From IMG/VR virus record IMGVR_UViG_3300029983_000035, positions 1 to 48,911 of that record: 48,911 nucleotides of DNA; one strand, written 5' to 3'. This DNA comes from a virus. This document shows, one piece after another, positions 1,450 through 4,020 of the stretch. Numbering within the stretch: position 1 is the stretch's first letter; each line of letters begins with the position of its first letter. The notes below the pieces were generated by a model, which was not told where the DNA came from, made no database searches, and worked only from the letters and a program-made list of their open reading frames with translations. The position numbers and the translations under genes are program-made.

Positions 1450-2868
1450 ATGGCAATAATTGCTGAATTTACAACAGTAAAACCTGAATTAGCTCACTCT
1501 AAAACGTATGAAGATTTTTATAAATTTCTTGGTGCTCGTCCAACTCGTTTGGGTATCGTGTCTAAAATGTATGAACATTTAACTGCTTCATATTTAACAG
1601 AAGGACTAGGAAACATTATGTACAATAGTCAAAAAACAGGTTCTAAATTTCAAAAAATCAATTCTCTTATGTTTGAGTGAGAAATTGATGTTAACTTTAT
1701 CAAACGTATAGAATTTGCAGCTGTTCCAACTGGAAATGGTGCTAATGGTTCTGATATTACCATGCAATTTACAGAACGTTATTTTGAACGTAATGATACT
1801 TTCATTATTGAAGAATCAAAACAACAATGTATTGTTATGGAAGCCCCAATTCGTAAATCAGATAATTTCTGGGAATATTCAGTAAGATTAATCGATTCAA
1901 CTTATAAAGAAACTTTAGATTTTACATCATGTCAAATTGGTATGACTACTCGTTTCGTATCTAATATTCAACCAGAATATCATGAAGAAGGTTTTGCTAA
2001 ATTCCAATCAAATATTGAAAAACATCGTAATTGGATTACTGAACATAGAGTTGATGTTAATTACTCTTCTCGTTATGCTTTAACCGAAGATGTATTCTTG
2101 AAAATCTCTAATGGAGAAGATGGTGGAGCTTACAAAGAAGCAATCTTTAAAATGCCTAAAGCAAAAGAACAAGCATTAGCTAGTTTCATGGAAGCTCGTA
2201 ACAATGCTTTACTTTTACAAAAAGGTACTATGGATGTGAATGGTAAGTCTTCAATCATTGACAAATTAGGTCGTCCATTGATTGCTGGTGATGGAGCAAT
2301 CCCTCAAATTAATCGTTTTGCAGGTAAATATAATTACTCTAAATTAAGTGTAGCTGTATTTAATAAAGCCATTACTACAATGACTCAAAAAGCTTCTTCT
2401 CCAGGTGGAAATACATTTGTATTTGTATGTAATGAGGTAGCTTATGCTGATGTTCAAACTACATTAGCTGAATACTTAAACAACTTCAAAGTATTAAATT
2501 CTTACATCTACTCACAAGCAGAAGGGAAAACTATTAAAGTTGGTGCTACTTATAGTTCTTATGAATTCTTAAATAACACAATCGTATTCAAAGTAGATCG
2601 TGCTTTATCTCGTGAATATCCAAATAAAGGTTATGCAATCTTAGTAGATTTAACTGCTGATAAAGCAAGTGGTCAACCAGCATTACAATTATTCTCTTTA
2701 AAAGGCGCTGAATTTACAAGTAATACTTTAGCTGGTGTTGGTGGTCTTGATGGTGCAACTTCAGGTGTAGTTTCTACTCCAGTTGCAGGTAGCAAATTAA
2801 TCAATAGTGGATTTGCAGGTATTGGGGTATTTACACCGTATAGAGCGTTCGTACTTTGTCAATCATAA
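1450..2868 (+). CDS. Major capsid protein (crAss-like; TGA read as Trp; C-terminus also encoded by a downstream exon)
   Basis: HK97-fold major capsid protein of crAss-like phages, 472 residues when TGA at 1678-1680 is read as Trp77 in the segment FEWEIDVNFIKRIEF. Recognisable crAss capsid segments include EAIFKMPKAKEQ, AGDGAIPQINRFAGKY, KVGATYSSYEF, FKVDRALSREYP, GGLDGATSG and STPVAGSKLI. The frame reads through to TAA at 2866-2868, ending PYRAFVLCQS. A group I intron appears to begin after T2839; splicing to the exon at 3921-3949 would instead give PYRSFVLMQN, also 472 residues. Arg is mostly encoded by CGT, unlike the AGA-rich neighbours, as expected for a highly expressed gene. It follows the scaffold-like gene by 23 bases. 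Confidence 0.93.
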
Positions 2869-2932
2869 TCAATATAGAAATATTTGATTAAATATCTGAT
2901 TATAGTAATATTTAAAATATATTCTAAATCAT

Positions 2933-2964
2933 TTTGTTTTACCACATAAGTTTCGTAACTTTGC
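2933..2964 (+). promoter_or_regulatory. Bacteroidota-type promoter for the intron-encoded endonuclease
   Basis: TTTG at 2933-2936, a 19-base spacer, then TAACTTTG at 2956-2963. This is a full match to the Bacteroidota primary-sigma consensus (TTTG, 19-21 nt, TAnnTTTG). The endonuclease ATG follows at 2982, leaving a very short leader. It lies inside the intron, so the endonuclease could be transcribed by host RNA polymerase independently of the capsid message. Confidence 0.62.
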
Positions 2965-2981
2965 ATATTATTAAAATAAAT

Positions 2982-3713
2982 ATGGAGAAATACAAAATTA
3001 AAAATAATCACTATTTATATAAAATTACCAATGTAATAACTAAAGAATATTATTTAGGTGTAAGAAGTTGTGATTGTGAAGTAAAAAAAGATAGATATAT
3101 GGGTTCAAGTCAAGTTTGGACTAAGGAATATATTAAAGATAATAAACAAAATCTTAAGAAGGAGATTCTAAATGAATTTCCTTCGAGAGAAGAAGCAGAT
3201 ATTAATGAAGTTATATTATTAAAAGAGAATGAACATAATTCTTTATGTATCAATATTTTATATGATTCAATTCCTAGTTGGTTGGGTAAAAAACAATCTG
3301 AGGAACATATAAATAAACGGAAATTATGTGGTGAAAGAAATGGTATGTTTGGTAAACATCATACAGATGAAGTTAAATTTCAAATTTCTGAATCACTTAA
3401 AGGACGTACTATTACAGAAGAAACTAGAGAAAAGATGTGTAAAGCTCAAAAAGGTAGAGTAATAACAGATGAAACTAAAGAAAAACTTAGAATTGCTAAA
3501 GAAGTTAAGAAATTAATTATAGATACAATTACTAATGAACAATGGGTTATGGGTTTAAAGTCATTTGCCGCTGAACATAATTTAGTTTATACAAGTTTAC
3601 GTTATGCTGAAAAAAATAAAACTTTATATAAAAAACGATACAAAGTAGAATGCATTAATGATGCGGCCTTCATTGGTAACAATGATTGCAAATTGGGTGA
3701 AAACGGGGAATAA
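2982..3713 (+). CDS. GIY-YIG homing endonuclease with NUMOD3 repeats (intron-encoded)
   Basis: A 243-residue site-specific DNA endonuclease of the type that spreads group I introns. The N-terminus has a GIY-YIG-like pattern: YLYKITN at about 12-18, then YYLGVRS at about 25-31, with a conserved-type Arg. A Glu in an EADINEVILL helix follows. Then come NUMOD3-type DNA-binding repeats (about 105-170) with motifs such as GERNGMFGKHHT, SLKGRTITEE and KAQKGRVITDE. A C-terminal helix-turn-helix-like segment follows (FAAEHNLVYTSLRYA). I chose ATG 2982 over an in-frame TTG at 2934 because the TTG overlaps the promoter. The stop lies at the start of the ribozyme core. All three Trp codons are TGG, so the gene is readable under the standard host code. 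Confidence 0.85.
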   Translation: MEKYKIKNNHYLYKITNVITKEYYLGVRSCDCEVKKDRYMGSSQVWTKEYIKDNKQNLKKEILNEFPSREEADINEVILLKENEHNSLCINILYDSIPSWLGKKQSEEHINKRKLCGERNGMFGKHHTDEVKFQISESLKGRTITEETREKMCKAQKGRVITDETKEKLRIAKEVKKLIIDTITNEQWVMGLKSFAAEHNLVYTSLRYAEKNKTLYKKRYKVECINDAAFIGNNDCKLGENGE

Positions 3714-3920
3714 CCAGAAGTGGTCAATCCCGTCGGAAGTTTGGGAAAACTAATTAAAGTACCAAAAACCGCTAACGACTAATAGGTGAGTATAGTAAAC
3801 AATAATCCTAACACGAGTGCCCGACCTCTTTATTTAGAGAGGATGATATAGTCTGAGCAATGGTATAACAAAAGAAGCCATTGAATTAAGGGATAAAGAG
3901 CCTTTAAGATAACAACACTG

Positions 3921-3949
3921 ACAGAAGCTTCGTACTTATGCAAAACTAG
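3921..3949 (+). other. Second exon of the capsid gene (last nine codons)
   Basis: After the proposed splice, T2839 joins AC at 3921 to form a TAC codon. The frame then reads Y-R-S-F-V-L-M-Q-N and stops at TAG 3947-3949. Capsid proteins of crAss-like phages commonly end near a PYRSF motif, so this exon looks like the ancestral C-terminus. It resembles the in-frame sequence at the start of the intron (2839-2868), with 20 of 30 bases identical including TTCGTACTT. Confidence 0.7.
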
Positions 3950-3975: not shown

Positions 3976-4020
3976 AAATATAACTGCTACATAAATCGTG
4001 TAGCAGTTATATTTATTAGA
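3976..4020 (+). terminator. Rho-independent terminator after the capsid gene
   Basis: A perfect 15-bp inverted repeat (3976-3990 with 4000-4014) surrounds a 9-base loop. The core pairing is ACTGCTAC with GTAGCAGT, followed by T-rich sequence. It lies 27 bases after the second-exon stop and separates the abundant capsid transcript from the downstream genes. The remaining 60 bases before the next gene are A/T-rich, with a small GTAGT/ACTAC hairpin near 4045-4057. Confidence 0.75.

Follow-up and report, generated by a model that had tools for sequence, protein, structure and literature searches.

We analyzed the complete 48,911-base IMG/VR record IMGVR_UViG_3300029983_000035 (hereafter, the window), which derives from a gut-type, Crassvirales-type phage. 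The ORF at 1450-2868 encodes the major capsid protein (MCP), which matched the Pfam Crass_capsid family (PF23898) at 3e-11, above the cut-off, and the PHROG major head protein at 1.4e-6. TGA is read as Trp in this and many neighboring genes. Three IMG/VR contigs (L001, L002, and L004; L numbers denote the loci collected in this study) are 99.98-100% identical to the window in this region, intron included. The features of the locus are as follows, all on the plus strand:

1450-2839 (+), MCP gene, exon 1, 463 codons plus the first base of Tyr-464, with one in-frame TGA read as Trp (W77)
2836-2841 (+), P1 5' strand CCGU|AU, with the 5' splice site after U2839
2840-3920 (+), group I intron of 1081 nt
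2840-2868 (+), surrogate capsid C-terminus with stop codon, encoded by the intron 5' end (with T2839, YRAFVLCQS*)
2934-2963 (+), Bacteroidota-type promoter-like site (TTG...TAACTTTG) upstream of the endonuclease gene, from a sequence match only
2982-3713 (+), GIY-YIG/NUMOD3 homing endonuclease gene in the P1 loop, whose 3' end overlaps the internal guide sequence (IGS), P2, P3, and P4
3661-3666 (+), IGS, the P1 3' strand (AU-GCGG)
3670-3685 (+), P2 hairpin with a GUAA tetraloop
3693-3920 (+), group I catalytic core P3-P9 and the terminal omega-G (G3920)
3921-3949 (+), native 3' exon, from the rest of Tyr-464 to the stop (spliced, YRSFVLMQN*)
3980-4010 (+), inverted repeat after the native stop, a likely transcription terminator of the capsid gene

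A previous sequence-only reading had noted that the capsid ORF, read straight from T2839 into the intron, ends in a near-copy of the C-terminus that splicing at T2839/A3921 would supply, and that chance seemed unlikely. This observation was confirmed. The unspliced product ends PYRAFVLCQS*, the spliced product ends PYRSFVLMQN*, and both comprise 472 residues with TGA as Trp. The two 30-nt stretches share 19 bases. Three codons differ at all three positions (GCG/AGC, TGT/ATG, and TCA/AAC, copy/exon), whereas the remaining codons are identical or differ only at the third base (Tyr, TAT/TAC; stop, TAA/TAG). This pattern is unlike ordinary substitution, and we infer that pairs of opposite one-base indels would explain AGC/GCG and ATG/TGT equally well. 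In simulated intron-like sequences, an equally good match in register occurred with P about 6e-5 at the DNA level, and at least five of eight residues plus the stop at the same codon occurred with P about 1e-6.

For the identification of the intron, we first applied the Rfam group I model (RF00028), which gave no hit in the window even at E=10; hence, the structure was tested by comparative alignment instead. The 3' part of the insert is 72-74% identical to introns of other phages, including the Crassvirales cr50_1 dUTPase intron. Nine homologous introns were aligned over P1 to P9. As a result, 97.4% of the cells paired, 37 of 56 pairs changed on both sides, and the covariation was 0.563 against 0.200 in shuffled alignments, with none of 500 shuffles and no slid version coming close. 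P7 is invariant, whereas P6a, P8, and P9 covary. P1 joins the exon bases CCGU with the guide GCGG in the window, whereas other lineages have CCUU/GAGG and CCAU/GUGG. Thus, exon and guide covary (exon position 7, G-C/U-A/A-U), and the U.G pair at the splice site is invariant in all nine. All six pairs of P2 covary, and this hairpin, which lies inside the endonuclease gene, has a GNRA loop in seven of the nine. The 3' splice site is fixed by the omega-G and by empty-site alleles. No RNA data were available, and self-splicing was not assayed.

Alternative splice sites were also considered. A 5' site at U2859 with an IGS GCAAA next to P3 and a 3' site at G3940 (which would give PYRAFVLCQN*), as well as a 3' site at G3950 (4-bp P10), were rejected because the GCGG guide with the P2 hairpin covaries in nine sequences. 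We also rejected the possibility that the resemblance reflects only the P1/P10 rule, in which the intron start and the exon 2 start pair with the same guide bases. This rule explains at most the first 1-4 nt, and P10 in the window is 1 bp.

The endonuclease gene matched phrog_314 (homing endonuclease) at 6.6e-28 and NUMOD3 at 1.3e-7. The Pfam GIY-YIG models did not score above the cut-off, and the YKI...YLG motif was read by eye from the alignment. Cleavage of the intronless allele and homing were not assayed; the evidence for mobility is indirect. On the MCP tree, the intron needs nine changes and sits next to intronless close relatives in several clades, as expected of a mobile or readily lost element, and L116 and L044 form a near-isogenic pair with and without the intron. 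Additionally, endonuclease identity follows MCP identity (Mantel r 0.91, p 0.0003), so transfers stay among related phages or losses are frequent. A Bacteroidota-type -7 promoter element (TAnnTTTG) lies 12-27 nt before the endonuclease start in six of eight leaders (the window, L053, L048, L051, L115, and L116), with a chance of about 0.06-0.21 each.

We next searched for the same arrangement in other MCP genes. Seventy-five MCP loci hold the C-terminal site. Ten have a group I core shortly downstream, three of them copies of the window's phage, and every one carries a surrogate ending. L116 was found through its endonuclease gene, whereas L094 and L115 re-find contigs or near-copies of cases already counted. 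In total, the same intron occurs at the same codon in eight further MCP genes, and all nine distinct introns encode a surrogate C-terminus at their 5' end. The nine cases (copy/spliced) are as follows:

Window, YRAFVLCQS/YRSFVLMQN
L115 (= L032 contig), WRSFIIEEV/YRSMIIEEV
L116, WRSFIVEEV/YRSMIIEEV
L048, WKSFILEEV/YKSFILEEV
L051, YKSFILEQV/YKSFILEEV
L053, YRSFILR/YRSFILREA
L064, YRSFVLK/YRSFILREA
L070, YRSYVLRQI/YKSYVLREI
L114 (= L088 contig), YKSYIARQI/YRSYIAREI

In L053 and L064, the copy stops two residues early, although this is within the natural range, as the intronless relative L060 also ends that early (PYRSYVIR*). In three loci (L115, 2691-2693; L116, 2296-2298; L048, 6746-6748), the first codon of the surrogate ending is TGA. 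There, the full-length unspliced capsid needs TGA to be read as Trp, and splicing replaces it with a Tyr codon; splicing and stop-codon recoding are tied together in these loci. L114 and L008 appear to read TAG as Gln, not TGA as Trp, and the same intron family occurs across different phage genetic codes (L114).

As a control, 69 introns at other MCP positions were read from the upstream exon into the intron. None encodes a copy of its downstream exon (best local score of 17 against 25 for the window's eight residues), including introns in the C-terminal part of the gene (aa 429/430 and 450/451). This control set contains near-duplicate contigs. The 69 junctions, from loci L005-L093, fall at about a dozen or more positions, with several introns in single genes such as L088; hence, the capsid gene of these phages is an intron hotspot.

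To determine which ending is native, we compared intron-bearing loci with intronless relatives. L044, intronless here, has nearly the same DNA as L116 next to the site (98-100% identity; further upstream the two diverge because other introns differ). Its capsid end equals the L116 3' exon at 29 of 29 bases and the L116 intron copy at 21 of 29. L065 against L064 gave 27/29 for the exon and 14/23 for the copy. Thus, the exon ending is native, the junction is exactly T|A, and the copy came with the intron. For the window, the nearest intronless relative with a similar ending, L037 (KSFILSQN*), is too distant (54% by best tblastn segment) to decide by counting bases (19/29 copy, 18/29 exon). However, the Ser after Arg/Lys, conserved in the relatives' endings, is in the exon, whereas the copy has Ala. 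The sequence-only reading had specified that its proposal would fall if relatives showed the 2839-2868 ending to be ancestral and 3921-3949 to be unrelated to any capsid gene. The comparison came out the other way, as 3921-3949 is the capsid gene's own kind of ending.

Counting codons after the Tyr, the nine copy-exon pairs have a pS of 0.79 and a pN of 0.15 (Fisher p about 2e-14, which overstates independence), indicating selection on both protein endings. The estimate relies on 6-8 codons per pair and ignores relatedness. The window is the exception and has the least constrained copy of the nine, differing about as much at nonsynonymous as at synonymous sites (pN 0.37, pS 0.41). Between lineages, the copy keeps 57% nucleotide identity, whereas intron bases 30-120 are at 32-35%. 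Each copy resembles the exon of its own phage more than those of others on average (0.78 against 0.47 aa; 2 of 720 permutations were as good). Additionally, L064 has lost the endonuclease but keeps the copy.

These data bear on four alternative explanations, all of which we consider unlikely. First, the copy may be a DNA binding site, an operator resembling the homing site through which the endonuclease represses its own gene, with the peptide as a by-product. I-TevI of the T4 td intron, also GIY-YIG, binds an operator upstream of its gene with 15/20 identity to its homing site (PMC2988022), and the copy lies upstream of the endonuclease gene and resembles the exon-2 half of the presumed homing site. 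However, the differences are mainly synonymous and include Ser AGT against TCC/TCA, so that protein is kept and DNA is not. The reading frame, the end point within two codons, and the stop are kept in all nine. The copy ends 76-119 nt before the endonuclease start codon, not at the promoter-like site at -12 to -27, and it persists in L064. Although improbable, this is the main rival.

Second, the element may once have captured the end of a capsid gene with a downstream endonuclease gene, the copy being a relic without present use. An endonuclease gene, NUMOD-like, does sit directly downstream of a capsid gene in another Crassvirales phage (L190, MT835839.1, about 2350-2860). It looks free-standing and not like this intron, but it is a possible source of an endonuclease plus gene-end element. 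The low constraint on the window's own copy also fits this view. Nevertheless, most lineages are only 42-72% identical in MCP and the neighboring intron leader is unalignable, yet the copy still encodes a capsid-like ending with a stop in all nine, with pN far below pS overall. We regard passive hitchhiking as improbable.

Third, splicing may make two functionally distinct capsid isoforms, the second option of the sequence-only reading. Two different C-termini are encoded and both are conserved as protein, but the differences are small and not conserved between lineages (A/S, C/M, and S/N in the window; Q/E in L070, L114, and L051; W/Y in L048, L115, and L116). This option has no specific support and is very unlikely. 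Fourth, no splicing may occur, the element being a replacement 3' gene end plus endonuclease and 3921-3949 a dead remnant, as in Glomus atp6 and cox2, where the displaced native end is not expressed (PMC3630166). This is the least likely, as the group I core is complete and covarying with exon-IGS pairing, and the presumed remnant is intact in all nine loci and identical to the empty-site allele in L116.

The interpretation that we favor, with fairly high confidence, is a mobile group I intron specialized for the very end of the phage capsid gene. In this view, its endonuclease cuts intronless capsid genes near the C-terminal Tyr codon, and repair copies the intron in. The first 22-29 nt of the intron encode a substitute for the residues beyond the insertion site, followed by a stop. 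Ribosomes can reach the 5' splice site of a self-splicing intron before the intron is complete, which may prevent folding; translation running over the 5' splice site impairs group I splicing in bacteria, and most group I introns have an in-frame stop just inside (PMC3073962). Here, the stop is preceded by a usable gene end. Ribosomes that reach the intron before it has spliced, as expected in bacteria where translation follows transcription, would still finish a full-length capsid protein and stop before entering the ribozyme core, whereas spliced transcripts would give the native ending. The insertion would be harmless to one of the phage's most highly made proteins, whatever the splicing efficiency. 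The 3' exon is also kept, and the P1 and core covariation implies that splicing is used. The intron, its splice sites, the copy, the conservation of both endings as protein, and the presence of the copy only with the intron are read from the sequences; translation of unspliced mRNA, equal function of both proteins, and endonuclease activity are our inferences. Protein data were also lacking. A sequence search of the PDB returned no match for the capsid, and we have no evidence on whether its last residues matter. The first option of the sequence-only reading, a mobile element carrying the 3' end of the gene so that the capsid stays functional without splicing, is well supported. Between duplication within the gene and import from elsewhere, the recent transfers are settled as carried in, but not the first origin of the copy.

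A broader reading, which we hold only tentatively, is that these elements form a class of splicing-indifferent phage introns. The codon-diverged but protein-conserved spare gene end would be kept by selection for translation of unspliced mRNA, and its transfer would also move an alternative capsid C-terminus between phages. The nucleotide divergence of copy and exon may itself be selected, to stop recombination between them or self-cleavage by the endonuclease. Introns in heavily translated phage genes face the problem of ribosomes reaching the 5' splice site before the intron is finished. This element appears to solve it by making splicing optional, which turns the notion that splicing makes introns neutral into a testable, partly different proposition. 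It also warns annotators that the unspliced ORF looks like a normal full-length capsid gene.

Related strategies are already described in fungal mitochondria, as the sequence-only reading had pointed out while knowing of no such case in a phage capsid gene. Among the papers that could be searched, in which subscription journals are mostly missing, we likewise found no phage intron with a spare gene end. The present element extends the strategy to phages, here in a capsid gene, with repeated natural cases and near-isogenic pairs with and without the intron. In Tremella fuciformis mitochondria, intron 5' ends encode an analogue of the downstream exon in frame with the upstream exon, and these were proposed to spread gene fragments with the intron (PMC7315562). 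They were described within one species, and of six predicted, a cDNA test found only nad4-i2 to be a real intron, three to stay in the cDNA, and two to be downstream sequence. The phage elements likewise carry an in-frame copy of the downstream exon, but the copy is short, both endings are conserved in nine loci, and the ribozyme is shown by covariation. No fungal intron was compared for common descent, and the resemblance is of architecture only. In the mobile ORF elements of Allomyces and Glomus atp6/atp9/cox2/nad3, an endonuclease gene travels with a foreign C-terminus that substitutes for the native one (PMC3630166). There, the element itself replaces the gene end and no intron joins the native end back, whereas here a group I intron keeps both ends usable.

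Among phage introns, the T4 td intron with I-TevI shares the group I core and a GIY-YIG endonuclease gene overlapping the ribozyme (PMC3073962), although the I-TevI gene lies in the P6 loop, not P1, and we know of no gene-end copy in td. Group I introns in major capsid genes are described in crAss-like phages, in high numbers (PMC7886860), and in mycobacteriophage LittleE, where splicing was shown (PMC3706429); no copy of the gene end was reported in the text consulted. Finally, the Crassvirales dUTPase introns (L009, cr50_1; L191, cr1_1) have a related core and an endonuclease gene in the P1 loop, annotated as HNH instead of GIY-YIG, and cr50_1 has no downstream-exon copy at the intron 5' end. 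The intron splits the cr50_1 dUTPase gene, which is annotated as two separate dUTPase genes, and cr1_1 is annotated in the same way.
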